Of a stretch of DNA of 64,000 nt, positions 848 through 64,000 are shown piece after piece. The stretch covers positions 1,903,001 through 1,967,000 of the forward strand of contig OY725506.1 of NCBI GenBank assembly GCA_963281255.1, given 5' to 3'. This DNA comes from Aphrocallistes beatrix (taxonomy: Eukaryota; Porifera; Hexactinellida; Sceptrulophora; Aphrocallistidae). Below the pieces are notes generated by a model that saw only the letters and a program-made list of their open reading frames with translations, ran no database searches and was not told where the DNA came from. Made by a program: the position numbers and the translations under genes. Each line of letters opens with the position of its first letter. Position 1 is the stretch's first letter.

Positions 848-998
848 TAAAAGCATAGCCTACTACATAGAAGTCATCACAACTTTTTTTAAAAAAAATT
901 TGGACTAGGGATGCGAAGGAAGATGGTTGAACTAATACATGAGCTGCCTTAAATCATGAACCACACACAATAGAGCTTAGGAATGTATTCCCAGCATA

Positions 999-1491
999 CA
1001 GTGGAAACCGGTTATAAGAACATCGTTGGGAGCTGAAAAAAATTTTCTTATAACAGTATTTCGGTTATAAGAACATGTTCTTATAACCGGCATAAGAGGT
1101 CAGATATGTCGGTTATAAGAACATATTTTGTTCTTTTTATTGGTTATAAGAACATCTATTGTCGGTTATAAGAACATATTTTGTTCTTTTTATCGGCTAT
1201 AAGAAGATTGGTCCCTAACCTAATAAATAGTAGAAACCTCGAAAAAGTATGCGAGGTAGAAGATACAGGAGTCAGAAATTACAAAATTGGTTGTGTATGA
1301 ATGAAAAATGAGAATTTGGCTACTAATAGTTCTAGAAATTATTGATAGAATGTTCTTATAACCGATACTAGATGTTCTTATAACCGGTTCTGTTTAAATA
1401 GTAATGAATAGAAAAGAATCCGTTCCCAAATAAATGGTTCTTATAACCGACATGTTCTTATAACTGGTGTTCATATAACCGATATCTACTG
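999..1491. mobile_element. Pogo/Tigger-type MITE with repeated ATAACCG motifs
   Basis: Ends read CAGTGGAAACCGGTTATAAG and, inverted, CAGTAGATATCGGTTATATG, flanked by TA on both sides (997-998, 1492-1493). The target (GCATATATAAA) matches the uninterrupted family A sequence elsewhere. Inside both ends, GGTTATAAGAACA and its reverse complement are repeated many times in degenerate form. No coding capacity. TA duplication and CAGT termini are typical of the pogo/Tigger branch of Tc1/mariner. Confidence 0.75.
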
Positions 1492-1758
1492 TATATAAAT
1501 ATTGTATCAAAGTACCCATATCCGTTGTTAAAATTTAGATTAGTCATCATATGATTGCGCAATAGGTTATATTTGTGACAAATTTAGTGATTTTCAGAGA
1601 CGGTTTAAAGGCACTTAGCCAATATACTATTTTTATTAAGTGATAAAACAATGTATATGTCTAAATTCAATGGTTTTTACAAGATATTCGAAAAATTACA
1701 AATGTGACCAATATGACAAATTGTTTAATAACTCAAAAGCTATTGATTTAGACATATA

Positions 1759-2990
1759 CAGGGTGCGATTTAAGTTCTGTCCCCAATTTAAACCACCATC
1801 AATCCAAAGTATAATCAGTGTATTAGTTATTACACAAGCTATTTTTAATTTATAATGACACTTTACTGTAAAGATCTAACTTAATTGCACAAAATAGCCA
1901 GATTCTGAAATTTTATTCCCAATGGGGCAAGAGAGGTGTGGAATTATTGAATTATTCAAAACCGGGGGAACACATGCAGAAATAATGAAATTGTGAATTT
2001 TCCAGAATCGAGGCGAAAGTTCGTCTATCGTACTATTAGGAGATACAAGGAGACCGGAGGAACTGCGGACAGGGCAAGAAGTGGTCGTCCGCCGCCAATA
2101 AGAGCTCTCCAACTTCAGAAGGCTGTATGCGAGCGGATTCGCCGAAATCCCCGGCGTTCGTTGTGAAAAATGGCTCTAGAACTCAAAATGTCCGAGTTTT
2201 CAATCCGCAAAGTAATGAAAATCTGTTTAGATGCGAGGTTGCAAAAGTAAGAAAGTTCATTCCCTTAGTGAGCAGGTTAAAGAGAAGAGATTACGAGATG
2301 TGAGGGAGAACTTGGTCGACACGCTACTTGTAGTCTGGAAAATATTATGTTATCAGATGAGAAAATGTTCACAATCCGAGGTTTCTAATAGCCAAAATTA
2401 CAGAATAATATCACTCACGACATGTAGCAATAAAGAAATGCTCAGATATATCCCTAGGTTGCAAAAGCCTCTCTCAGTGATGGTTTGGCCTGGAAAATCC
2501 GCTAGTGGACGGACACATCGGGTTTTTGTCCCGAGTGGGGTCAAATCAACGCTCCTACCTACCGTGAGTTGATTTTAGACCCGGTTGTGAAGAACCTAGG
2601 GCAAACAATATTTAATAGGAGGTCCTTCGTCTTCCAACAAGATAGAGCTCAAGCCCATACCGAAAATTCCACTCAAGATTGGCTTCGCAGCAATATTCCG
2701 GGGTTTATCAGTGATGACCAATAGACTATGTACAGCCCAGACCTAAACCCCATGGGTTATTCGATTGGCCCATTCTCGAAACAAATGCCTGTAGTAAATC
2801 TCAATAAAGTATTGAGTCTTTGGAGTGATCTTTGGTAGTAGAATGGGAGAAGGTTCCCCAAGAGGTCCTACATACCGCAGTAGGGGCTTTACCAGGCAGA
2901 ATAAAAGCTGTGATTAAAAACAAAGGTGGATACATTGATTAGCAATTCATAATTCGTATTGTAACATGATCTCTAATCTCTATACGTGAA
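1759..2990 (+). pseudogene. DD37D Tc/mariner-type transposase relic
   Basis: The left end CAGGGTGCG follows a TA, as in the related element at 23867. Forward frames contain recognisable transposase pieces: a paired-like helix-turn-helix region near 1930-2130, the block QKPLSVMVWPG near 2465-2500, and FQQDRAQAHTENSTQDW near 2630-2680, which carries the second catalytic Asp. Frames change several times and stops interrupt all of them, so it is inactive. The right inverted repeat was not found; family A sequence resumes near 3000. Confidence 0.75.
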
Positions 2991-3075
2991 TTTTCGATGA
3001 TACAAAGTGACGACTCACAAAGTTATAGGTAATTATAGATTTAAATTTGAATATCTACCTCTTGTGGTTTTCAAG

Positions 3076-3230
3076 CAGGGCCGGCGCCACCGGGGGTGTC
3101 CTGGATGTCCAGACACCCACTGCGTCCTGTTTTATCATATTGTACAATATATATCCCTCCATAAATGGACACCCACTTTCAGAGAAATCCCTCTTAGGAC
3201 ACCCACTGCCGATAAAACATGGCGCCGGCC
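3076..3230. mobile_element. Short GC-rich hAT-like MITE
   Basis: The left end is CAGGGCCGGCGCCA and the right end TGGCGCCGGCC, a near-perfect inverted repeat. It interrupts the family A sequence TTTTCAAGATATGAC, and TCAAG is present on both sides. CAGGG termini suggest hAT, but the 8-bp duplication is imperfect, so the superfamily is tentative. The short ORFs across it are not genes. Confidence 0.55.
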
Positions 3231-4022
3231 ATGTCAAGATATGACCTCAACTGACCAAAAATGCGTTTCCATAGCAACACTGGAATGTAGCAACATTCCA
3301 TGATAAAATTCAAAATTATTCACATCAACTCATCCATGGCTCACTTATATCCAAAAAAAAATTAAAATAAAAACACTAAGAAGTGCCCTTTAAATCGTCT
3401 CCATATGATGAAAGTTAATATGTCATCATATGATTGCGAAATAGGCTCTTTTTGGAGCGAGAAATGCTGCTGTTCTAGGCCATTTATTAAATTTCATATT
3501 CTGCATATCTAATGATTGATTTTGTGTAATGGTTTATGAGTTGTTAGAAAAATTACCAAATGTGACCAAAATTATAAATTCTCTAATAGTACCTAAACCA
3601 CTGAATTTTGACGAGGAAGTTATATTATTCTTTAGTAGGAAGAAGTCTATTGGCTATCAAATAAAATAAAATTGGAATGCAGTTATTACAGTTTTCAAGA
3701 TATGACATCAACTAGAGTAAAATGCGTTACATTGTAACGCTGGAATGTAGCAACATTGCATGAAAAATCTAAATTTTTTACATTAAACCCATTCACAGCT
3801 CGATTCTATTCGGAAACTTTATATTAAAACACTTCAAAATGTCCTTAAATCGGCTCTAAAAATCAGTAAATTCGTACGAGTTATCTTAGCGACGGATTCA
3901 AAATCCTCACTAAAACGCACGTAACTCAAAAAGTATACGTTCTATGTTAAAGATAATTATACCAGTTGAAAGAAGAGCGTTTGGGTATTTCATAAAATGC
4001 CTCAAATATGTCAATTCTTAAG

Positions 4023-4073
4023 GACAAGAATTTACTATCAAAATGCTAAGTCTTTTGATAGTAAATTCTTGTC
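4023..4073. repeat. Perfect 21-bp inverted repeat with 9-base loop
   Basis: Arms GACAAGAATTTACTATCAAA(A) at 4023-4043 and 4053-4073 are perfect reverse complements around the loop TGCTAAGTC. Nothing else around it has this symmetry. It looks like a templated snap-back duplication rather than an element end. Confidence 0.8.
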
Positions 4074-4133
4074 GCAGTTTTAGTGAATATCTCTGAAAGT
4101 AATAAGAAGAAAGTTTTTTCCTTTGAATAACAC

Positions 4134-5014
4134 TAGGGTTGTAAAGGGTGGGAAACTTTCCGGGAATTTTGGGAATTTTCGTTTTTCTATAATAATGAGA
4201 AATATTCAAATATTTTACTGTGCCGACTATAATATTTTATAGTGGCCCAGTTCTGAAATGCATTATTTTGTTTGTTTGTTTGTATTTGTCAATAGACCTG
4301 TCCTGGCTACACCATTATACATTAAATTTGGCAAGTAGATATGAAAAGTCCATCTAATTTGGATCTCGGTATACGATTTTCCAACCAGCCACAATTTTTG
4401 TATTCAATATTTTGAATTGTAATGTCAATCACGAGAATCACAAGATCCAGACCAATTATAGCCAATATACTTTTCATTTCAATGAGTTTAAATAAAACTC
4501 GGTTAAAATTTGTCAGATATTTTTTGACTAGAGCTGTAGCCAAAATATTTTTATAAACTACAAGCGCGCTTCGCTAGCTTGTGCTGCGCGGCTGGTGGAC
4601 ACTTTGTGTCCGCCGGAGGCGCCCTTTGGATACCTGTGGTCACCATTGATTATTATAAGAGAAATAATATCTCTAAATATGTCTATCTTAGTGTTAAAAT
4701 CGATATCACTCGAAAAATCACCAAATTTGTCAATTTTTGAAATTTTTGATGAGTAATGATGACGTCATAACAGAGTGATGAGTCATCATTTTTTGACGAT
4801 AGTTGCATCATAAGTGAGGTATGTTAGTATACAGATTCTATTAAAATTTCAGCTTTCTATCTCCTATAATCGCTGAGTTACGCTCACATTCATTTTTCTC
4901 AGAGAAATGCCTCGGAAACAATCGGATTTATTTAAACACTATGCAGAAATTCAAGTATAATAAATTCCCGGAAAGTTTCTACATTTGAAAATTCCAGGGA
5001 ATTTTGCAACCCTA
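4134..5014. mobile_element. TAGGGTTG-ended TIR element split by a Helentron-like insertion
   Basis: Left end TAGGGTTGTAAAGGGTGGGA and right end TTGCAACCCTA are inverted, and the subterminal AACTTTCCGGGAATTT block recurs inverted near 4967-4985. TA lies at both ends. The centre is a truncated Helentron-like copy (4560 to ~4890) plus AT-rich sequence. No transposase. Confidence 0.5.
4560..4890 (-). mobile_element. Helentron-like family 1 copy, 3' half
   Basis: Reading the minus strand it ends in GCGCGCTTGT preceded by the palindromic AAGC-rich hairpin and the GGCGGACACAAAGTGTCC-type stem. Upstream blocks (GTGATATCGATTTTAACA, TGACGTCATCATTACTCATC) match the full copies at 10754 and 40873. The 5' half is missing. 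Confidence 0.75.
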
Positions 5015-5440
5015 AATAACACATTTCTACAAATGGGTATTATGCATTTTAAATTTCAAACATAAATATTAACTTTTGAGAACATTATAGCTGTTCGAAT
5101 TTTTACATTATAAATCACATTAAAAAATGCCCAGTTTTTTGTCATTAATTAACTCTTGAAATATTGATGCTCGAAAGATTTCCTTTGGAATACGCTTATT
5201 TAAGTTTGGATTATTTTATATTTCAAATATTGGCTAAAAATATTGATTTTTAAAGAATTATGAACATTTGATTTGTTAGTAAATATGCTCAATTTGAGTT
5301 TAAAACCCACGCTTGCCACAGGAATGTGCTGCGTCATTTCCGGTGGAAGCCATTTTCAATGTGGAAGCCATATCAGTTTGGGGTTACTACTATAAATAGA
5401 AAAATCCCAAAATGCTTCTAAGGGATGATTATTAATATTA

Positions 5441-5633
5441 TAGTCAACACCCCTTAATCGGGAAACCGGCTAATCAGGACAACCGATTAATTGGGACAAG
5501 TCTCCAGGAACGGAACGGTTCCCATACAATGCATACATAGAAGCAAATACTAAATTTAATCGGTTAATTGGAATCCTTGCTTAATAAGGACAAATATCCG
5601 GGACCAAGGTGTCCAGATTAATTGAGTCACCTG
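5441..5633. mobile_element. 193-bp pogo-type MITE
   Basis: TA-flanked, with ends TAGTCAACACCCCTTAATCG and, inverted, CAGGTGACTCAATTAATCTG. GATTAAT/ATTAATC motifs with GGGAC spacers repeat inside both arms. Non-coding. Confidence 0.65.
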
Positions 5634-6250
5634 TATTTATTATGATTTCCATTATGCATAAAAACAATATTATAACATGTAAACAAGCATGTGAGTAAAC
5701 TTTTCAAACAAATCAAAAAATGAATAATCAGAGGCAAATGTTAACTTCACATCGGCCAGATTGGATTACATTAATACAGATACGTATTCTCAGAGCAAGA
5801 ATGTAGTAATCATCTTTATCGTGAAATGGGTAAGAATCAAAGGAAAGAATGCGTCAATAATTTCTGGAATGTATTAACAGGAACTAAGTCGAGTAGTCAT
5901 CTTGTTATCAAATCCAAATCTAAAACACCAAAAGAACAGCGATTAGCTGAATGATTGCGCGTGATAAGAAGGTTTTAATGTTTGGAAATAAAATATTTAA
6001 CAACGAAATGGTATCTCTTAATTAAACATAATAATGCGTTGATGTACTTATAATTAAATAGCTTCCAATTTTTGTAAACATACTCAAATTGTGTAAGAAT
6101 TCTTGATAATAGACTATGGGTGATATATATCAGAAATGCTACAAAAAAAAGTCTAATGGAGCTAGGAAACTAAGCTAATGAATTTCAGACACGAATTAAT
6201 TAAATAACAAGGTATATACAAATATATACATACATACATACATACATATA
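5634..6250. other. No feature recognised
   Basis: AT-rich sequence with a short CATA microsatellite near 6228-6250. No exon, RNA gene or clear element end was found on either strand. Confidence 0.5.
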
Positions 6251-6960
6251 CAGTTTGAGTCATAATTATTTAGAATATCAGTAGTTATTGAATAACCATC
6301 TTCTTACTTGGAAGGATCGTGTTCTGGTCGAAACTAACTAAATACGATTTCCAATTGATATCGCTCTAACATTATAAATTTAAACTGATTTTGAAAAAAT
6401 TTCTAAAGTAATTAAGAAGGCTAAAAATGTCATCACAATTCACGTCCACGTAAATGTTTATCTTTGATCAGTATCTTTATTAAATCTAGCCAGATTACCA
6501 ATAATTTCAATGGCGCAGCTCAGAAAGCGACAGATTGTAGATACTCTCCTTACTTCTACAGGTTATACTACGAAAGAGATTGCTCGTATTGCCAAAGTTA
6601 GCTTGGCGAAAGTATATAATGTAAAATCTCGACAGAAGATATCTTCTAAATTCCAGCATAAAAAGGGAGCTGGAAGACCTAAAACCTTGGGAAATGCCAT
6701 TAAACCGAGTCTATCCTAGCAGATTAGGAGACCATTCCTATCAATACGGAAACTTGCTTCTCAACTCGCAATTGATACCTCCTTTTCTAGAGTCGGTAGG
6801 GCTCTAAAAGATCTCAATTATAAAATAGCCTTTCCATCCAAGCCACCAATGTTATGCGAAAAGGCCCGCCTATATAGCATCAAATGGGCGTAAAGATATA
6901 CTATGTACCCAAAAAAATCCTGGGGTCTCATACGAAAAAAATCCTGAGGTCTCCTACGTC
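6251..6960 (+). pseudogene. Tc1-like element, 5' part with transposase HTH region
   Basis: A Tc1-style left end, CAGTTTGAGTCATAATTATT, follows a TA at 6249-6250. The frame from 6510 gives 69 residues beginning MAQLRKRQIVDTLL. It includes a first helix-turn-helix (TTKEIARIAKVSLAKVYNVK) and a GAGRPKT linker of the GRPR type, then a stop at 6717. Homologous sequence continues out of frame (IRRPFLSIRKLASQLAIDTS, then a second helix) to about 6890. The catalytic domain and right inverted repeat are absent, so this is a 5' fragment. Confidence 0.7.
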
Positions 6961-8744
6961 CTGTATTAATTAAAACTACAACTTAAAATTTTTAATGCAA
7001 GAAATAGCTGATTTCAGCACTAGTATGAGCTGAACTAATCTTCTCAGCTAGGGGGACTGGGCTAGTGGTATAAGTAGGGTGTTTTACTGTTAGAGCATAG
7101 TAAAACACCTTTTTCTGAGAGCTAAAAATTGACCTGGTGGCATCTAAATGGAGAATAAACTTTTTTTTAAAGCTTTCCAAATTTTATTTGTTCTTCTGTT
7201 TACAGATGAATAATTAAACAATTATCTCCCGGTCGGATGTAACCTCTTAACTGGTTACCAACTAAAGTTTCCTGATAGTGTTGCTGCAAATTAATCAATT
7301 CACTCCAATTATCTTTCGAATATCTTTGTAGGCTAGACAAATCAAATTTAGACTTTCTAAGAACAGATGCACTTTTTATTTTATCAAAATTCCCGCTATT
7401 AAGGGCGAATATAGTATTCTTAGTTAATTCGAATTGATTGTAAAGGCATGGCTAATAACATAGAGGTCACCATTTTGGGTTGGATTGCCAATGCAACAGC
7501 CTCATCCCAGTCATGGTGAACACTAACTTTGCATCGGAACGCTCCTAAAAAATCATTTATTGAACTGAAAACAAGACTTTCTTAACTGCTCTCAAGCATG
7601 CGGATAATGACAAGATGACAACCGTGACAATATGAACAAAGGGATTGCATCAAATGATGAAATGGAAGATAAAAATGAATATGAGCATATCTATCCATCT
7701 ATTTATCAATCTATCCAACCTAATGATTCCATCATATATTTCATAGGTGTTTAAAAAGAATCAAAAAATTACGAGTGTATTTCCCTTATCAATACATTTC
7801 TGCCATCATGCACAAGCCATCATATTTTAAAACAAACATTTAGACTATTTATAATAAGAAATTCGTACTGTGCTTGTTGGGTACCGAGAAAAAAAGGGGG
7901 TCACTTGATATGGTTTCGACCAGATTTGGAGACCAGAGATTTTATATTCCAGGGCGTTGTTAGTGAAGACCAAAAACATTTTGCTCAAAATAAAGTCAAT
8001 ATATATATCCCTAAATGGCGCTAGATTTTTGCTAACTCATTTCCGGTTAAGTCATTTTGGGCGGGGAAACCTTAGAAGTGTGGGGTCTTTGCTATAAATA
8101 GAAATGACCCCAGGTAATTTAAGGGATATGTAACAATTTCTCGTAAATCCGATGCTGGCCACGAATATGACAATAAAAATAATACACAATGATTTCAAAG
8201 GTTAAATATCAGTTTTCAGAACCGGCGATTAAAATAGTCTCAAGTCAGGTAAACTTTTAGTATATTATTCCTAATAAATGAAACTACGGAAAATGCAATA
8301 AAATAATTTCTAGCAATTCTTGGGGTATGGAGCTTTTACTTAATTTACTCAAAATAAAAAGCTGGAAGATAACTGGTTCTAATGATTATAGTTGAGGTTA
8401 TAAATAGACAAGCCCGCTTGGCTTGCTTGCGCTGCGCGGCTTGCTGACACTGCATGTGCTGGCTATCAAGGAAGAAGAAACGGTTGATTGTTTTATAATT
8501 TCCAAAACGTCATTTATCTAGGGTGAATCATGAATTCAGAGCTGGAGAAGAAAATGTAGACAAAGTATTACACAAAAATAGACAAAAAATAGACAAAAAA
8601 GAACTGATCAGATAGTTTCTAGCATATTTGGGAATCTATTTACTTTATGTAACTATTGTAAATTTAGGTAAACTAATAATTTATCATATAGACTCGAAAA
8701 TTACACTTGAACTCAAGTTATTACTTTGAACATAGCCTACTTAA
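6961..8744. other. No gene recognised; one repeat fragment and a small hairpin
   Basis: AT-rich. At 8408-8470 a minus-strand scrap of the Helentron-like 3' hairpin is present (GCTTGCTTGCGCTGCGCGGC). Near 7078-7110 an 11-bp inverted repeat (GGTGTTTTACT / AGTAAAACACC) has a 10-base loop. A block near 8030-8125 (CATTTCCGGT, CTATAAATAGAAA) resembles 5330-5420 and may be part of a diverged repeat. ATAGCCTAC at 8732-8740, just before the TTAA, is the family A terminal motif. Confidence 0.45.
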
Positions 8745-11298: not shown

Positions 11299-11471
11299 AA
11301 CATTTAATATCGAAGATATTATAATAATGAACCATATTTATTATAAATATTATTTGAATGAATACTATTATTGGTCTCATAATATTCAAAACTATTATAT
11401 TACACATACTTTTGCCTGATTGAATATCCCTCTGCTCTTTTAATTAATATTAGCCTCTATTACATTCCGAC

Positions 11472-12017
11472 ATGCCAAATTCATGTTCTGTCCCTGGATG
11501 CAAGAGTAACTACAACGTTGGTGATCGAGTTCCAATATTCAAAATGCCTGAAAGTCCACCTGACCTGAATTATACCTGGACATGTGCTCTGCATCGTGAG
11601 GATATAGGTGACCTCAAGGCTGTTTATGTATGCATCAAGCATTTACAGAAAGAAGACATATACTTCACTTTCAAAGTGCCAAAAGGAGATGGTACCTTTA
11701 TTGAAGTACCCCGCGTGAAGCCAATGCTGAAGGAAGGTACTGTTCCAAGTCTACTACCTGGGCGTCCAACTTACTATTCAACTAAATCTACGAAACGGAC
11801 TCGCTTGTCATACGATGAAAAAGAAGATTTGATGAATCAAACCCTGCAATTTAGTTTGAGATCCGAGAGTGAGAAGAAGATGAAGTTTAGCGTCAATTCT
11901 CTAAAATACTTGAAAGATAAGTTAACCTTGATTTCAATACCTAATAGTTGGTTTGTATGGTTTCGTGATGAAAATAACATCACGTTCGCAAGATGTCTGA
12001 TTGAAATATGTTTGTGA
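11472..12017 (+). CDS. THAP-domain N-terminus of P-element-type transposase (truncated)
   Basis: A 181-residue frame. The THAP zinc finger runs from residue 1 to ~90, with C2CH ligands Cys5, Cys10, Cys54 and His57 (CSVPGC ... VCIKH), plus the conserved Trp36 and the Pro of FKMP. A linker (KVPKGDGTFIEVPR, then LLPGRPTYYSTKSTKRTRLS) and a helical segment follow, ending in LKLP/W-type P-transposase sequence (LTLISIPNSWFVWF). In the family this region binds DNA at the element ends. The start ATG directly precedes the MPNSC typical of THAP N-termini. The frame stops 40 bases before the insertion at 12061, so the RNase-H catalytic core is absent. It could still encode a DNA-binding-only product, but nothing shows it is expressed. 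Confidence 0.8.
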   Translation: MPNSCSVPGCKSNYNVGDRVPIFKMPESPPDLNYTWTCALHREDIGDLKAVYVCIKHLQKEDIYFTFKVPKGDGTFIEVPRVKPMLKEGTVPSLLPGRPTYYSTKSTKRTRLSYDEKEDLMNQTLQFSLRSESEKKMKFSVNSLKYLKDKLTLISIPNSWFVWFRDENNITFARCLIEICL

Positions 12018-26419: not shown

Positions 26420-27574
<1,155 letters not shown>

Positions 27575-45521: not shown

Positions 45522-46310
45522 CAGGGTGGGCCACGGGAAACAGGTTGAAATAAAATTGCCATAACTCGGCAGTCTTTTGTCTAATTCCTGTTGGCAACCC
45601 CTCATTTTGTAGCTAGAAGGATGCTATTTTATGTTTTATTAACCTCTATACACTAGTAAGTTATGACAAGGCTGACGCGTGGTGAAAGGAATAATGTCAT
45701 AAAATAGTACTACGGAAATCATAATTCTATAGTTATAACGCAGAGAAGATTTAGGAGATTCTATAAATCTAGAACTGCACCTAAACCAGATACCATCAAA
45801 AATATTGTCAAGAGGTTTGAAGGGAATGGCACTGTAAATGATACATCTAGGCCAGGACCATCCAAGACAGTGAGGACTCCCATTACTTAAGTAACATCGA
45901 AAAATTAAAGAGGAAACTTGCAGATTCACCACACCGCTCATCAAGGAGGCTTTCAAGAGAGCTGCAATTATCCAGGACAACAGTTAGGAGGATTCTCATA
46001 GATGACCTCAACCTCTTCCCATATAAGATACAGATCCTACAGAAGCAATCTACACTCCAAAAAGAGAAGAGACTGACTTTTGCAAAACTTATGTCAGAGA
46101 ATATTGGGAATAATGAAATTGACATTGGTGATAATGACTGGAGTGACGAGGCTAATTTTCACATTTCTGGACAAGTCAATAAGCAGAACATGAGGATTTC
46201 GAGTGAGGAAAAGCCAAACGTGTTTGATAACAAGCCTTTAACATAAGAAAAGGGTATAGTCTGGTGTGCAGTTGGCTCTAAGAAGATAATCGGTCCGTAT
46301 TTTTATGAAG
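45522..46310 (+). pseudogene. Tc/mariner (IS630 superfamily) transposase relic
   Basis: The end CAGGGTGGGCCACGGGAAAC follows TA. The plus strand reads FRRFYKSRTAPKPDTIKNIV then KRFEGNGTVNDTSRPGPSKT, the helix-turn-helix and linker of this superfamily, preceded by MTRLTRGERNNVI. Fragments continue toward the first catalytic block near 46135-46200. It is broken in several places and cut at its 3' side by a Helentron-like scrap. The long minus-strand frames here are shadows. Confidence 0.65.
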
Positions 46311-51680: not shown

Positions 51681-51974
51681 TATATATATATATATATATG
51701 TAACGAATTGATTGAACAAACTGACAGGCACAGAAAGCTGATTTTTGGCATGTGGGGGTCTTTTGGCAATGGCTCCACTAAGTTCTGAACTCAGAAGAAA
51801 ATGTCAACTCATCATGAAATTATGATGCCATTGTCACTTTTTTTATAATCCGAAATTTTAGGTTTTGACTATAGTTCAGCCATTTTGGCTGATAGAGGGA
51901 CATCATTATTAAGCATCAAAACATTATTAATTGCCATTTATTGTGATTTTTCGAAAGTATCCCGCTTATAGTAC

Positions 51975-52175
51975 TGTTGCGTGAAATTCTGAGGCGCATG
52001 AAATTCTGAGGCACTTGTATACAGGGACCATGGATGCACAACTAGCGTGAAATTTTGAGGCACTCCGTGAAATTCTGAGGCATGAACAAAGAAACCTGAT
52101 CAGCAGAACATATGATCTAAGACTACTAGGTTTCTGGTTCCTATTACAGATGATGTATCATCTAACATGATGATT
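51975..52175 (+). repeat. Left inverted repeat of the Ginger element with four motif copies
   Basis: TGAAATTCTGAGGC (or one-base variants) occurs at 51982-51995, 51999-52012, 52048-52061 and 52068-52081. An ACTTGTATACAGGGACCATG block lies between the second and third copies. The right end carries the same arrangement inverted. Repeated subterminal motifs usually bind the transposase. Confidence 0.85.
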
Positions 52176-52303
52176 TGGTTATTCGTCTTTTACTACCAAA
52201 GCGTTTATATATAAAGTATTAACTTCGTACTAAATATAATATTTTAACAGTATTGCAAATTCAGTTATTTTATTGAGTAACTTTCCTTTCTTTTTGCATT
52301 GAA

Positions 52304-54056
52304 ATGAACTCAGAGGAATACGAAAGCATTATTAATTTCCTTCGAAATGACATATACCCACCAGCAGCATCACTTAACTCCAAGACAAAATGGAATTTCA
52401 GGAGAAGCGTTTCAGGCTACTTTATTGGAGAATCAGATACTCTTCACAATGTAAGGAATTGAGTTCTTGACTTAAACTAGTTGAACTATTGGTGAGCACC
52501 AAGTTTTTGTAGTTGTTTTTTTCAAATTATTGCAAAGTTGCTAAGATAAGGTTGTGAAACTTATCTTAAAGAATAAATGCATGCAATATCTGTGCAAAAA
52601 GTTGTATACGTATAAGGCCCCGAGCACTTTTTCTGCCGTAAAATATTTGACAAATAAAATTTAATTTTGATTGAGCATTTGTTTCAGAGAATCAATCTTG
52701 AGGGAACAGAGGTAGATGTAAAAGTCGCTCTAAGTGAAGAAGTCGATGGAATTTTGAAAAAGTTCCATGATAAAGTAGGCCATCCAGGAATCAACTCTAG
52801 TTATTTAGCAATACAGCAACAATACTACTGGAAAGGAATGTTTACAGATGTCTCTCAATACGTGAGTGCTGAGTCAATTAATTTGTTTCCCTTTTTATGT
52901 ATTGCTTCAATATATTGAATCATTTTTGAAGACCTTGAATATTTAGGAATTCTATTTAGAAAAAAACATGTGATTACTGCCAATCTGAAGCGCCATTACC
53001 TGCACAACCTCAAAGAAAACTTCAGCCTATCCCTCCTCCAAACCAAACATGGTTCCACATAGGCATGGATCTCATCTGCGATCTCCCAGTGACTCGACTA
53101 GGTTTCAAACACATACTTGTTACAGTGTGCTACCTTAGCAAATACGTGTTAGCTCGACCGCTTAAAACAAAGACCTCTGAAGAAGTAATTCAGCAGCTGA
53201 AGGACATATACCTTGAAGTTGGTTTGCCCAAAGTTATCCAGCATGATCAAGGAAAGGAGTTTACAAGCAACGTAAGTACGATAACCATCAAAATATTTAG
53301 AAATTTACTTGAGAATCGTATGTCATTCCAGCATGTATGTAGGTAGATCTTCCAAGATTTCCACAAGCGGATAGGGATTGACAACAGAAAGACACGTGCA
53401 TATCATCCAATGGCTAATGGATTAGTGGAAGCACATAATAAGATCCTCAAGATGTAATAATTTTTGTTAATAACTGGATTTGGAGAACATAGATATAAAA
53501 TTATTTTTTCATTAATTAATATGCAAATTTAGGAAGTTGAACAATATGTGCATCGAAACTAATAAAGAATGGTCGGAGCTCCTCAAGTCTGCTGTCATTG
53601 CAATGAACAGTACTAGGAAAAAGTCTCACGGATATACTGCCTTCAGAGTAATGTGGGGAAGAGAGTCCAGATATGAAGAACTACTCTCTATCGACGATAT
53701 TTCTTCCACATCGGCTGAAGATTTTGAGTGCGAGGAGACTATAGTCGACGAATTCCCGCTTGATGAGGAAAACAAGTTTTTTGGATTTCAAAGAGTACAA
53801 ATAGTGAGACATCTCAACAATCTCAAGGTAGCCTATTCCATTCTTTTCTACTACCTTTTTCGTCAATTATATTTAGCCATTCGAAAGGTTTATTTCTTAT
53901 TTCTCTACACAGGAAATTTTAGCAACTAATATCAGGGAAGGAACGTTCATGAGTCAATTACATCAAGAACTTCATGAGTTGCTCAATAAAAATCACGAGT
54001 ATGTTCCAAACACATTATTATTTCGTTTCCTGAATGACTCAAGTGAAGTTAATTTG
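52304..54056 (+). CDS. Ginger integrase: exons 1-6 of the transposon gene
   Basis: My exon model, from splice signals and frame: 52304-52450, 52688-52861, 52960-53271, 53347-53453, 53533-53827, 53913-54056; all junctions keep phase. Exon 1 begins MNSEEYESIINFLRNDIYPP after an ATG. Exon 2 carries the two His of the zinc-binding domain (FHDKVGHPGINSSY) and exon 3 the two Cys (CDYCQ). The catalytic residues are Asp at 53068 (GMDLICD), Asp at 53245 (QHDQGKEF) and Glu at 53428 (NGLVEAHNK). Exactly 35 residues lie between the last two, which also supports the exon 3-4 junction. Exons 5-6 hold the usual AMNSTRKKSHGYTAFRVMWG block and an uncharacterised tail. The integrase would cut out and reinsert the element in the nucleus. 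No stop interrupts these exons. Confidence 0.8.
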
Positions 54057-54557
54057 GTGAGTAATTCTTTATTCAGTTATTTCCAGTTTTATTGGAAAAT
54101 TTCTATCTCTGGATTTAAATATCAACCATCTCGAACAAGATAAATTCGATATTTAGATTATTTCATTGTTTCATTATTTCAAAACGTAAATACCGCAATT
54201 ATTTGTACATTTCCAACATTTCGTAAAAGATGATGTGTAGCAGATGATGTAATAAACACTCTGACAAATACAAAATGATTACGATAAGTAACTGAATGAT
54301 TTAGACTGGATTCTCTTTGCTAATTATAGCTAATGGAATTGAGTTAATACCAACAATAGGATACTAACAATGCACATGCATGCAAGATAGTCATGCGTAT
54401 GACCATAAACTACTTAAGAGTTTTTCAAATTACTTAAAACCCGCGGCTGGCTACGTCATTTTTCTATTTATAGTTTATAGTTATCAAGGAGTAATGAACT
54501 CGCAATGTTCCTAGCACAACTACATAGCAATTAAATTAACATATTTCTAATTTGTAG

Positions 54558-55565
54558 AAAAAAAGCAATTCGTGAAAAACTTCAAAGTTGGATAGTGGAT
54601 TTATATCCTCAATTTGGCGGCTCATTAGCCATCAAATACACAGAAAAAGTATTATATGGAGTGGTAAGTTTGTGATATCTGTTTAGTTGATTAATTGACT
54701 ATTGGTGAGATTGCAATTAAAAATTGTGTTAGACTAAACAAATTTCGAAATAATAAAATGTTTTATTTCGACTATAACAAAGAAAATGTTTCGAGCCTTT
54801 AGCTAGAATGCAAATTTTTCTGTTTTTTTAATAATATCTGTATTTTCGCGCATAGTTATGAAATTTACAAAATTAGGGTAATTATAACTCTCCTTGTATT
54901 AGGCAATCCAATACTTAAACACCATGCTATGGGAAACGTTTCCTGACAACTGGAGGAATTTCATTCCTAGCATGTTGACTAAAAGCCCGAATATTACGGT
55001 AGTCGATGAGCGATGGCAGCGTCAGAAATGTGCTATGCACGGACTCACGTTTCATTCCGTATGCAGGCAACCCGATCACCTCTTAAATGAACAACTTTCA
55101 AAATACCAACCATGGGAAACTGAAGATATCGTGGGAGATGGCAACTGTCTATTCCGTTGTCTCTCCAAAATTATTACAGGAAGCCAGGAAAATCATTCTA
55201 CTCTCCGTTCTATCATATCTAACTACATGGCAAGCGAGGGTACTACACAAATGGGTTGGTATTTTCGACAATCTCGCCTTACACCATGTGATTACTTTCT
55301 TAATGAAAGGCCTACCTACCTAGATGGCGTTTGGGGAGGCGATTTTGAGATAATGGCAGCTTCCGCAATTCTTCAAGCGGATATATTCATAGCTAACAAC
55401 AATTATAGTATGGAAGCGAATAAGTACACTAGCAAAGTACGATGGAGCCTGCTTAGAGCTACGAAAGATACCAACTCATCACTCTATATAAAGAACTATC
55501 ATGAACACTACGAACCTGTTGTTTCTATGATTAATTCTTCCACTCCAACTTTTGGAATGGATTAA
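54558..55565 (+). CDS. OTU cysteine-protease C-terminus of the Ginger gene (exons 7-8)
   Basis: Exon 7 (54558-54663; REKLQSWIVDLYPQFGGSLA) joins exon 8 (54903-55565) in phase: donor GTG|GTAAGT, acceptor TATTAG|GCA. Exon 8 has the OTU signature VGDGNCLFRCLSKI with Asp at 55137-55139 and catalytic Cys at 55146-55148, a middle block GDFEIMAASAILQADIFI, and the catalytic His in YHEHYEPVV (55506-55508). All three expected catalytic positions are present. OTU enzymes cleave ubiquitin or ubiquitin-like chains; here the domain is transposon-borne and could stabilise the transposase or counter host silencing (inference). The junction from exon 6 to exon 7 does not keep phase in my model, so an exon in 54057-54557 is probably missed or the OTU part is a separate gene. 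Confidence 0.8.
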
Positions 55566-55936
55566 GAAGTTTTAATGTAATGAAAATATACTATTATGAA
55601 GTCACATTTACTCAGTCCTTTATGCAACACTGTTCAAGTTTTGTTAATTTTGTCATCAGATTGATAGATTAGGCGTTGAATTATAATATGTTGTGTTACA
55701 TTTACTTGTTGCCAGTTAGTTGTTGGTATCATTATTTAGTTAATTTGATTACAATATTGACAATTAACGATATACAATTCCATATTATAGCGATCAGAGA
55801 GAACTGCTAGATACGGTTTATAGAAATGATCGTTAGACTATGTTGTTTGACTGTCTTTTATAAAAATAGTAAAGAAATACAGACCACTTGCGGTGGTAAC
55901 CACAACAAGAATCATATAATACGTAAATGAATGAAA
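55566..55936 (+). other. 3' untranslated part of the Ginger element
   Basis: AT-rich sequence between the OTU stop codon and the right inverted repeat. No reading frame or further motif recognised. Confidence 0.6.
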
Positions 55937-56373
55937 ATCATCATGTTAGATGATACATCATCTGTAATAGGAACCAGAAACCTAGTAGTCTTAGATCATA
56001 TGTTCTGATCAGGTTTCTTTGTTCATGCCTCAGAATTTCACGGAGTGCCTCAAAATTTCACGCTAGTTGTGCATCCATGGTCCCTGTATACAAGTGCCTC
56101 AGAATTTCACGCGCCTCAGAATTTCACGCAACAGTACTAAGACAAACATATTTAGAGAAATGCTATCTACTTTTTGATTAATCAATGTGGGCCTAGACGC
56201 CAAAGGGCGCCTCCGGCGGACAAGATGTTCGCCAGCTGCGCAGCGAAAGCAAGCGAAGCGCCCTTGTTAATTTTAATATACACAAATATTAATCGAGTTT
56301 AAATAGTAGCGAGTAAAATAAACAAAAACAAGTCTCCATTGGTACCCAATCAAAACTAGAATTAAATTCATCT

Positions 56374-59099: not shown

Positions 59100-60091
59100 T
59101 ATTTTCAATGATCTATCCCGAGTTTATGGCCGTGATGCTTGTTCAGAATCTACCGTCAAGAAGTGGAGTATTCGTTTTCGTGAGGGGAGAGAGGCGATAG
59201 CAGATGACCCTCGGGCTGGAAGACCGGTTACGGCGACCACCACTAATAATATCTCTCAGGTATCCAAAATGATTGAAGAACCACATATCACGATTGAGGG
59301 TATATTGCTAACCATGTTGATTTGTCATCGGGAACAGTTCATGAGATTTTGAGTTTGCATCTTGGCCTGAGGAAATTTTGTTCCCGTTGGGTCCCGCATT
59401 TGCTTTCTGACAGTCAAAAGAAGGCTCGATTGAATGCAGCTAAGTCTCTCCTGAAAATTTATGGTCATTGCAATGAAAGGCGATTATTCGAGATCTGTAT
59501 AGGAGATGAAACCTGGATACGGTTTTCAGCTGACATTACGTAACGAACAGAATAGAGTATGGCTCCCGAAAGGCACAGATCCACTTGCAATCCCCCGTCC
59601 GGACCACTGGGGCCGAAAGGTTATGTACACGATATTCTTTGATGCATATGGCCCAGTGTGTCAAATTTGCACCCCCAAAGGGTAGGACTGTTACAGGAAA
59701 CTTTTATGCAACGGTGATACTTCCTGCTATAAAGAAACACTATCTAGAGCGTCGTCCAGGATGTGGACTAAAATTATTGCACGATAATGCCAGACCCCAT
59801 AAATCGAAGCAGGTGAAGGACAAATTGGAGTCCATGAGGCTTGTCGAATTATATCACCCTCCTTATAGTCCAGACCTAGCACCCTGTGACTTTTGGCTAT
59901 TTGATGGTCTCAAAAAACACCTAGCAGGGAAGACTTTTGATGAGAGGATGCAACTTGGGAGGACAATTCAGCGGTACTTTAGAAACATCCCGGAAGAGGA
60001 GTATAAAAAGACATTTTATATGTGGGTAGAGCGGTTAACGCTCGTAGTTAAGTACAAGGGAGATTACTTTGAACATTTAGTAATGTTTTGA
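59100..60091 (+). pseudogene. Mariner transposase (DD34D), broken
   Basis: Reads FNDLSRVYGRDACSESTVKK and IRFREGREAIADDPRAGRPV (N-terminal HTH and linker), SSGTVHEILSLHLGLRKFCS with RWVPHLLS (second HTH, 59322 on), and EICIGDETWIRFSADIT (first Asp). A frame-shifted stretch precedes MAQCVKFAPPKGRTVTGNFY, LLHDNARPHKSKQVKDKLES (second Asp) and YSPDLAPCDFWLFDGLKKHL (third Asp). There are 34 residues between the last two Asp. The protein ends KYKGDYFEHLVMF. It is broken by two or three frame changes in the first half; the 168-residue second half is open. All three catalytic Asp survive. Confidence 0.85.
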
Positions 60092-60495
60092 TATGATATA
60101 ATGTGTATTGCCCCTTTTTCCATACTGAGTTACGAACTTTTTGAATGCCCTAAGTATATATTGGTAAACTCAGAATTTTTCCAAGGTATTTTGAATTTGA
60201 ACATGCTTTTTCCAGCTAATAAGAGTATGAATAGTATTTTAAATTAACACACAAAACACACCACAAATTAAGTTAATACACTTGCCAAGTTGAGGTAGAA
60301 ATATGTGTTGAGGGGCGGCATGAAATACATCCGCCCCGGGCGACATAGGTGTAAGCTACGCCTCTGCTTCAAAGCCACAACTTATGTTTGATATCTTAAA
60401 TGTATTATAGTGTATGGCTATAAAAAAGATTATCTGCATATTTTCACACCTTTATATACATATTTTCACACCATTTGATGAATTTTGAAAATAAT

Positions 60496-61199
60496 GCTAG
60501 AGACTAGCTTTCAACGGTTGACATGGGGTTTTTAGGGGTGTAGATTTCTAATATCATATTTTTAGATCTATATGATAAATTATTTGATTACTTTTGTTTA
60601 CATTAGATACATAAAGTAAACAAATCTCAAAAATAGGCTAGAGACTTGCTTTCAACGATTGACATGGGGTTTTCAGGGGTGTAGATTTCGAATATCATAT
60701 TTTCAGATCTATATGATAAATTATTTGTTTACTTTTGTTTACAATAGATATATAAAGTAAACAAATTACAAAAATATGCTAGAAACTTGCTTTCAACGGT
60801 TAACATGGGGTTTTCAGGGGTGTAGATTTCGAATATCATATTTTCAGATCTATATGATAAATTATTTGTTTACTTTTGTTTACAATAGATATATAAAGTA
60901 AACAAATTACAAAAAGATGCTAGAAACTTGCTTTCAACGGTTAACATGGGGTTTTCAGGAGTGTAGATTTCGAATATCATATTTTCAGATCTATATGATA
61001 AATTATTTGTTTACTTTTGTTTACAATAGATATATAAAGTAAACAAATTACAAAAATATGCTAGAAACTTGCTTTCAACGGGTTACATGGGGTTTTTAGT
61101 GGTGTAGATTCCGAATATCATATTTTCAGATCGAAATGATAAATTAATCGTATACTTTTGTTTACAATATTCATATAAAGTAAAAAATTCCCAAATAGG
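60496..61199 (+). repeat. Five tandem copies of a 141-bp unit
   Basis: Units start with GCTAGA at 60496, 60637, 60778, 60919 and 61060, spaced exactly 141 bases; the last ends at ~61198. Each contains TTGCTTTCAACGGTTAACAT, TTCAGATCTATATGATAAAT and a near-palindromic TTTACTTTTGTTTACAAT. The middle units are nearly identical and the outer ones more diverged. The array sits between the body and the 3' hairpin of the family 2 element. Confidence 0.9.
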
Positions 61200-62639: not shown

Positions 62640-64000
62640 TAGTTAATTCTTCTGAGGATTTTGGCAAAAGCACCCATCTCCGAACAGCTGAGAAGTACAG
62701 CGTCAGTCGGTTTGGTGATATTGTCGAGCTGCATACCAAGGGTGGGGAGTTTCGAGGAAGAGAGAGAGCGCGTGCACTTTAGTAGTTGCCAAGGAAGATG
62801 TTTACGAGACCCTCTGCAAAGCACACGACAAGATCTGTCATGCAGTGAGGTTTAGAATGTAGGCCTATCTGGAGAGACATGTAAACTGCACATTACTCGC
62901 TCCATCTTGGACATATTTTTACGACTCTGCCCTATATGCCAGGAGAAAAGGGGAAGGTGACTGCGAAAAGGATTGTACACAAGCCAATCATTCCTCCAAC
63001 TGTTGGCCAGCGTGTACACTCTGACCTGATAGATTTACGAGTGCAGGAGGATAACGGGTACAAATACATCCTCAATTACCAGGACTGCTTTAGCAAGTTT
63101 ATTGTGTTGAGAGCGCTTAAAACGAAGTCAGCTGTAGAGGTGTGTGACCACCTGATCTCCATATTCTGTGAACATGGAGCACCTCACATCTTCCAGACAT
63201 ATAACGGAGGTGAATCTACTAATAACATGCTGAATATGGTACTGCTTACGGAGTGGAAGAGAACACGGTTCGTACATGGAGGCATCGGAAATCCACAGAT
63301 CAAGGAATCATTGAGTGAGCTAATCAAGATGTTGAGAAGCTGCTCTATGCCCGCCTCAAATCATTGAAAAGGCCAATGAACCAATGGGTGAGTGAGTTAA
63401 AATATGTTCAATATACTAAGAATACTGTAAAACATTCCGCTCTGGGCCGTAGTCCCTTTGGAGTACACTTTGGGAGGACCCCCCTGATCTATCTGTAGAT
63501 TTGATGTGTTACCCCAGGAGTTGATATACTCACTCAACACCGAGGACGATGTGGAGAAAGCTCTACAGTGGGGTAGCCAGATCATCGAATTCACTACTCA
63601 AACTACCGAGACTACAGCAGTTTATGTCCCACGACCCCCACTCTCTCGCATGACTCTTTGTCAGCCAGATGTGCCAATTCCTTCAGTCGATGTTTCTAAT
63701 CAAGTGGATAGAGACCAACAGCCTCAGCCATGTTCTTCATATAGCTCAGGACCTGTCCACGAGTACACCGAAGTTGAAGTTCCCTCATCGCCTCTCTCTT
63801 CTACTGACGAGCTGGATGAAACAATTCTCTCAGAGCTGTATCCAGTACTAGTTCAGGATGAGGATTCTTACGACTTGGAGGTTAGACCGCTTATTAGGAC
63901 TGATATTAGACCATTTGTTAACCCAAATGATAGACTTCTTCCTCCGATGTCGATCCAAAACTCCGATTTAACGAGAATGTTTGTGCTAATTGTGAACTGA
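62640..64000 (+). mobile_element. Integrase-bearing element fossil (KRBA2/SCAND3-like integrase)
   Basis: Fossil of an element carrying a DDE integrase, running off the window end. The forward frames at 62936-63367 and 63506-64000 show an integrase core of the type seen in KRBA2- and SCAND3-like proteins (HSDLIDLR, YILNYQDCFSKFIVLRAL) and a Ser/Pro-rich acidic C-terminal region. It is broken, with a few disablements in the core. Whether it derives from an LTR element or from a Ginger-like DNA transposon cannot be told without its ends, so it is treated as a fossil. Confidence 0.65.

Follow-up and report, generated by a model that had tools for sequence, protein, structure and literature searches.

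Ginger1 transposases with a C-terminal OTU domain have been known from hydra, Aplysia and aphid since 2010 (Bao et al., 2010; PMC2836005); the duplications that flank the hydra elements are CCGG or CCGT according to the available text of that paper, and 4 bp is given as the usual Ginger1 length of such a target-site duplication (TSD) in the accessible part of PMC10045372. In the portions available, Bao et al. proposed a repair role for the OTU domain; the reason that transposons carry ubiquitin or SUMO proteases was raised as a question there and again in 2022 (PMC9741609), the available text of the latter stating that transposon OTU domains had had no prior test of catalytic activity. We analyzed 64,000 nucleotides from the glass sponge Aphrocallistes beatrix (contig OY725506.1, positions 1,903,001 to 1,967,000; this whole stretch is the window), in which a Ginger1-like element occupies window positions 51975-56133. 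We consider it highly probable that this window copy has undergone an internal deletion, is probably non-autonomous and belongs to a family of cut-and-paste transposons that keeps the OTU domain.

The initial annotation had singled out the locus as an unusual, possibly active system; it is not unusual in its plan, in that OTU-bearing Ginger1 elements were already in print in 2010 (PMC2836005, in the text available). New here are the many glass-sponge relatives, the GNNC target, the retained OTU triad, its low omega (the ratio of nonsynonymous to synonymous substitution rates, dN/dS) and an alternative domain held in common with the glass sponge Oopsacas; the significance lies mostly in the transposon family and not in the window copy. 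A literature search for Ginger elements in glass sponges found none, but it covered open-license papers only and is therefore weak.

Architecture of the window copy and of its sisters

Five frames of the element were scanned against Pfam; two gave no match, and the matches, which lie in successive frames, are to Integrase_H2C2 (9.5e-13), rve (1.3e-8) and OTU (4.4e-10), all above the curated cut-offs. A gene model of eight exons, bordered by AG...GT, is possible; the features of the predicted gene and of the element's ends and lesions are as follows (terminal inverted repeat, TIR).

51971..51974, unstranded: left target-site duplication GTAC (flank reading, sister-copy comparison)
51975..52176, + strand: left TIR, starting with TGTTG (repeat search, sister-copy alignment)
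51979..52084, + strand: four copies of the ~20-bp motif SCRTGAAATTYTGAGGC in the left TIR (repeat family D2)
52304..52450, + strand: exon 1, N-terminal part with the IYPP... region (exon prediction)
52688..52861, + strand: exon 2, H2C2 zinc finger (Pfam Integrase_H2C2, exon prediction)
52960..53271, + strand: exon 3, integrase core with the first two catalytic Asp (Pfam rve, exon prediction)
53339..53342, + strand: duplication of 4 bases at the acceptor of exon 4 that neither long sister has, its placement within the repeat being arbitrary (sister-copy alignment)
53347..53453, + strand: exon 4, catalytic Glu (exon prediction)
53533..53827, + strand: exon 5, a fusion exon across the 697-bp deletion (exon prediction)
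53772..53775, unstranded: junction of the 697-bp deletion, which removes the GPY/F-like integrase C-terminal module (sister-copy alignment)
53913..54056, + strand: exon 6 (exon prediction)
54558..54663, + strand: exon 7, whose opening A-run has one more base than that of either long sister (sister-copy alignment, exon prediction)
54903..55565, + strand: exon 8, OTU domain, with Asp at 55137-55139, Cys at 55146-55148 and His at 55506-55508 (Pfam OTU)
55935..56133, - strand: right TIR, ending with CAACA (repeat search, sister-copy alignment)
56024..56129, - strand: four copies of the motif SCRTGAAATTYTGAGGC in the right TIR (repeat family D3)
56134..56137, unstranded: right target-site duplication GTAC (flank reading, sister-copy comparison)

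The long sister copies, L031 and L032, lie at two other loci in the genome and were found by a search with the left arm that gave 63 matches (best 40 of 82 candidates scored). They are 99.25% (4104/4135 aligned bases) and 98.46% (3704/3762) identical to the window copy; two short, internally deleted relatives (L033 and L034) have similar ends. Both long sisters contain 697 bp that the window copy lacks, with a microhomology of 2 bases at the junction. When this segment was used to search the genome (best 150 of 218 candidates scored), both sister copies were matched (100% and 98%), and none of the matches listed falls inside the window element (C20:1954-1959 kb). The segment resembles the GPY/F region of a Gypsy-type protein (23/76 residues, 30%; E 5e-4) and an Oopsacas integrase (31/81, 38%; 7e-17); the GPY/F position in both long sisters reads YLGPQT, aligned to Gypsy YRGPYRV, the third residue being Gln. 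That is, the Ginger1 GPY/F-like module is present in both long sisters and missing from the window copy; because the fused exon 5 is still open, a reading by eye would overlook the loss.

Joining the eight window exons unaltered breaks the reading frame ahead of the OTU exon, and it is the extra base in the exon 7 A-run that causes the shift. In L031 the OTU domain is in frame with the integrase, and the unaltered sequence is open over 803 residues in 10 predicted exons; L032 lacks part of the left arm, the first exon and the start of the second. In 3760 gap-free columns the window copy has 21 private substitutions, L031 has 8 and L032 has 37. The single protein predicted from less damaged relatives has a motif in its N-terminal part, continues with an H2C2 finger, a DDE core of the Gypsy-integrase type and a GPY/F-like module, and has an OTU cysteine protease as its C-terminal part; the window copy is best read as probably non-autonomous and internally deleted.

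Much of what the initial annotation described in the window copy is there. The catalytic Asp, Asp and Glu are found in exons 3-4 with DD35E spacing (counted by eye on the predicted protein), the OTU Asp, Cys and His are residues 79, 82 and 202 of exon 8, and exon 1 reads IYPP...GYF...LHN, in which three of the four positions of the Ginger1 YPYY motif fit, by eye only. The TIR arms are ~200 bp long and differ from each other by one substitution and one 3-base indel, and GTAC stands on each flank. The predicted intron-split gene, the full set of DD35E residues, the OTU domain with its three residues in the 54903-55565 exon, the near-identical arms and the duplications are accordingly all borne out, as is the assignment to Ginger-type DNA transposons with an OTU domain, on which domains, TIRs and duplication agree. 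Since GTAC is palindromic, the inverted repeat continues into the duplication; the boundary is fixed by the sister copies, which have GAAC/GTTC duplications. The repeated ~20-bp TIR motifs (family D2 has a fifth row, outside the element) are possible transposase-binding sites. The insertion is apparently fairly recent, and the youth first proposed is a fair guess.

The site of insertion is itself a repeat. The flanks, joined across the element, match four repeat copies in one piece with 76-77% identity and no gap at the junction (best 40 candidates scored), and at least 19 further pieces among the matches listed span the junction with 68-77% identity. In the four copies read letter by letter, the target 4 bp are ATAG, ATAG, AAAG and ACAG, none of them GTAC, so it is the position, rather than the letters, that shows the single 4-bp copy of the empty site. 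These alignments support a clean insertion into a repeat with empty-site relatives. The initial annotation had placed the element within a Helentron-like copy whose halves rejoin: the rejoining is supported but the Helentron label is not, the nearest of the Helitron_like_N matches listed on the contig being ~150 kb away.

The target-site rule was derived by running a script over 21 loci. An element was accepted only if its ends were TGT...ACA, its 24-bp arms matched at ≥80% and its two 4-bp flanks were identical, so that other duplication lengths were outside the reach of the script. The script returned 15 elements from 12 loci and none from the other 9. Together with the window copy, all 16 scored insertions have a GNNC duplication, with an A directly before it in 15 of them and a T directly after it in 14. 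The arm sequences of two of these insertions (L038:49-961 and L038:1300-2142) are clearly different, so the GNNC rule extends beyond a single family. The CCGG/CCGT target of hydra Ginger1 is not found here, GNNC standing in its place; this shift from CCGG gives a way to study how Gypsy-type integrases choose their targets. As a separate observation, L038 (G000:C15:2602400-2611100, G000 being the genome searched) contains nested insertions: within the TIR span 966-7708 lies a 4980-bp TIR element, and a separate GNNC duplication flanks each of the two. Two shorter TIR elements are close by.

Conservation and possible role of the OTU domain

The OTU exon has at least 152 matches in its own genome, down to 29% identity among the matches listed, and the integrase exon has at least 150. 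We compared the first 100 integrase-exon matches with at least 145 OTU places on the same strand: an OTU match lies downstream of 52, 55 and 61 of the 100 within 4, 6 and 10 kb (60 within 8 kb), and upstream of none at each of the three distances. In 35 OTU loci (the set after removal of four duplicates), the triad Asp is present in 34, the Cys in 35 and the His in 33, and stops occur in 4.

Under GY codon models, the 28 OTU sequences give a tree-wide omega of 0.116 and the 23 integrase-exon sequences one of 0.089. With omega set to 1 and kappa to 1.55, the log-likelihood drops by 552 for OTU (-7803.9 to -8356.1) and by 353 for the integrase exon (-3094.5 to -3447.0). Pairwise dN/dS was calculated for 15 representatives (105 pairs); in the three moderately diverged pairs (L068-L071, L068-L078 and L103-L038), the OTU values lie at 0.09-0.12 and those of the integrase exon at 0.03-0.09. 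These codon comparisons show that the predicted OTU domain has been kept in working order by purifying selection during divergence of the family, and the care with which the relatives maintain it suggests that the domain matters to the transposon. The best sequence match of the domain in the PDB is OTUD1 (5.7e-5), a deubiquitinase, the other matches being viral OTU-bearing polymerases; a PHROGs search with the OTU exon gave no match.

The likely sequence of events is as follows. The transposase would bind the repeated TIR motifs and excise the element, which would reinsert where the sequence resembles AGNNCT and so acquire the 4-bp GNNC duplication (the duplication itself is seen in the 16 insertions). 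The OTU domain would most likely remove ubiquitin from the transposase or from proteins of its complex, so that activity lasts longer or repair is steered, and may also strip ubiquitin from repair and silencing factors at the insertion site. Protection of the transposase by OTU is plausible and fits the purifying selection on the domain. The window copy would have lost its integrase C-terminal module through a deletion at the 2-base microhomology, either before or after insertion.

Several points weigh against this account. Pfam at E≤1 gives no family for the deleted module. The A-run difference could be a homopolymer assembly error, and skipping of exon 7 would preserve the frame, so the loss of OTU from the window product is not certain. 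Most of the OTU loci in the triad and omega counts are best-scoring matches, so both sets lean to intact copies. Synonymous sites are saturated in most pairs of the family, only 11 of the 105 passing the saturation filter; in three near-saturated pairs the OTU dN/dS is 0.09, 0.09 and 0.27, with an unusable integrase value, and in very close pairs it is unstable (0.07-1.33) or gives no value. The AlphaFold model of OTU, built from a three-row alignment, has a mean pLDDT of 46.9 and was unusable.

The alternative that fares best accepts the conservation of OTU and supposes that its main job is not deubiquitination but processing of the transposase or cleavage of a different ubiquitin-like modifier. 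Conservation and constraint, which are what was established for OTU, suit this too, and in at least seven hydra Ginger1 families the slot is filled by Ulp1, a protease of the SUMO type (PMC2836005, available text); the best PDB match being OTUD1, we nevertheless think it unlikely. The structurally complete, possibly active Ginger of the initial annotation, with its own transposase and OTU enzyme, is very improbable. Its near-identical TIRs, its close identity to L031, its clean TSD and its empty site would all suit such an element; however, the missing 697-bp module, the frameshift before OTU and the altered exon 4 acceptor refute completeness, unless the assembly is wrong there, and leave little room for activity. 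We give scarcely any likelihood to the view that OTU was captured as a passenger and plays no part in transposition: capture of host sequence by transposons does occur, and OTU is also found in Helitron-type open frames of this genome, but its omega (0.12) is near that of the integrase exon (0.09), and it lies downstream of so many integrase exons and upstream of none. A decayed Gypsy-type long terminal repeat retrotransposon, suggested by the Gypsy-type matches of the integrase and H2C2 finger, can be set aside as having negligible probability, since the terminal repeats are inverted and not direct, neither reverse transcriptase nor RNase H is among the Pfam hits to the five scanned frames, OTU is at the C-terminus and a sister copy has the same plan.

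An alternative C-terminal domain, and other features of the window

The closest named relative outside this genome, Oopsacas minuta protein P0001, gave no match when searched for OTU; its C-terminal 137 residues match 64 places in G000. Of the 40 integrase exons that lack OTU, 19 have this alternative domain 2.2-3.1 kb downstream and none has it upstream within 6 kb; none of the 60 that have OTU has it downstream. The other 21 of the 40 have neither domain, for which incomplete match lists and decay may account. It carries NTCPVDN/NTCSIDN and two CxxC pairs, and the copy in L119 (G000:C13:1970690-1971290) is 57% identical to P0001 over the common part. Family searches gave only zinc-ribbon models below their cut-offs (Zn_ribbon_3CxxC, 0.0069; rubredoxin-like, 0.027), the PDB searches nothing below E 0.1 and PHROGs a single match at E 0.76.

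Two identities were considered. Ulp1 was rejected because none of the nine Peptidase_C48 matches genome-wide falls at the places of the domain. USP, proposed from a resemblance, by eye, in the Cys box and zinc fingers, finds no support in Pfam: a 200-residue piece has no UCH match at E≤10, and genome searches with UCH_1 and UCH list no hit at the alternative-domain places (compared by eye).

An integrase tree over ~104 residues, built from 30 exons of this genome plus Oopsacas and rooted against a single Gypsy-type sequence as outgroup, places L120, the one alternative-domain element included, beside Oopsacas (support 0.979); its placement among the OTU types is weaker (0.82-0.86), so we do not claim a single replacement event. 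A tentative possibility, to which we give somewhat less than even chances, is that the Ginger C-terminal slot takes interchangeable cysteine proteases of the ubiquitin pathway, like a cartridge: in hydra either OTU or Ulp1, and in glass sponges either OTU or an undescribed protease-like, perhaps USP-like domain that carries NTC-xx-DN together with two CxxC pairs. The activity would then be needed but no single enzyme. Mutually exclusive C-terminal modules would fit a need for an activity over one enzyme, as the available text of PMC9741609 argues for Helitrons and herpesviruses. A literature search on Ulp1 and the Mutator-like SUMO protease found none, in open-license papers only, and is thus weak. 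With at least 150 integrase-exon and at least 152 OTU matches, both constrained, plus a lineage with another domain, this one sponge genome is a natural test set.

Elsewhere in the window, a second integrase core, apparently decayed, occupies 62885-63367 (+ strand; rve 2.3e-7, its 31.4 bits falling short of the cut-off of 32.6); by eye, Tyr stands in the place of the expected second catalytic Asp. A HECT ubiquitin-ligase frame at 26420-27574 (- strand; 1.9e-92) is probably an exon of a host gene. The region looks rich in transposon remains, with a DDE_3 endonuclease fragment (59534-60091), a weak HTH_Tnp_Tc3_2 match below cut-off (45851-46246) and a THAP domain (11454-12017). A tandem array with 141-bp spacing lies at 60340-61185, where five in-register 282-nt windows are 63-93% identical to the reference one. 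Outside the window, L115 (G000:C28:3080-4660) is mitochondrial COX1, with TGA as Trp and with AGA where the Aphrocallistes beatrix record has Ser. It lies on an 18-kb contig; translated with table 5 it shares 96% identity with the A. beatrix record, 86% with A. vastus and 82% with Oopsacas minuta, another record falling between at 89%. Reading ATA as Ile lowers the A. beatrix value to 88%, since Met stands at those positions in the record, and the remaining differences concentrate in one stretch close to the start. COX1 therefore points to a glass sponge as the source, in all likelihood A. beatrix or a near relative.

Comparison with known systems

Oopsacas minuta P0001 is 37% identical over 72% of the query and has the H2C2 finger, the core and the GPY/F-like module; it differs in its C-terminal region, which has no OTU match and instead has an NTCSIDN-type module without a Pfam match, although the gene model may be short. 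Helitrons and Helentrons with OTU or VTD deubiquitinase domains are alike in bearing a ubiquitin-protease-type domain on a transposon, and unlike in being rolling-circle Rep-helicase and not integrase-type elements (PMC9741609, available text). Two open frames of like length in this genome (G000:C2:4502656-4506654 and C7:517370-521368; 1970 and 1947 aa) carry OTU with Helitron_like_N, so Helitrons with OTU probably also live here.

Among the Ginger groups, the AT-rich RTATAY target and the lack of GPY/F that characterize Ginger2/Tdd are not seen, the target being GNNC and a GPY/F-like module being present in the sisters. The closest described systems are Ginger1-1, -2, -3, -11_HM and Ginger1-1_AC (Bao et al., 2010; PMC2836005, as far as its available text describes them). 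The sponge elements differ from these in target (GNNC as opposed to CCGG/CCGT), in introns (9 predicted in the sister copy, 0-4 in the Ginger1 Table 1), at the GPY/F position (GPQ in the sister copy) and in host, a glass sponge being outside the four species of that paper. What they have in common is the plan as a whole: a Gypsy-type integrase with its DDE core, an H2C2 finger, introns, TGTNR ends, TIRs within the 40-270 bp class, a 4-bp TSD and a C-terminal OTU domain.

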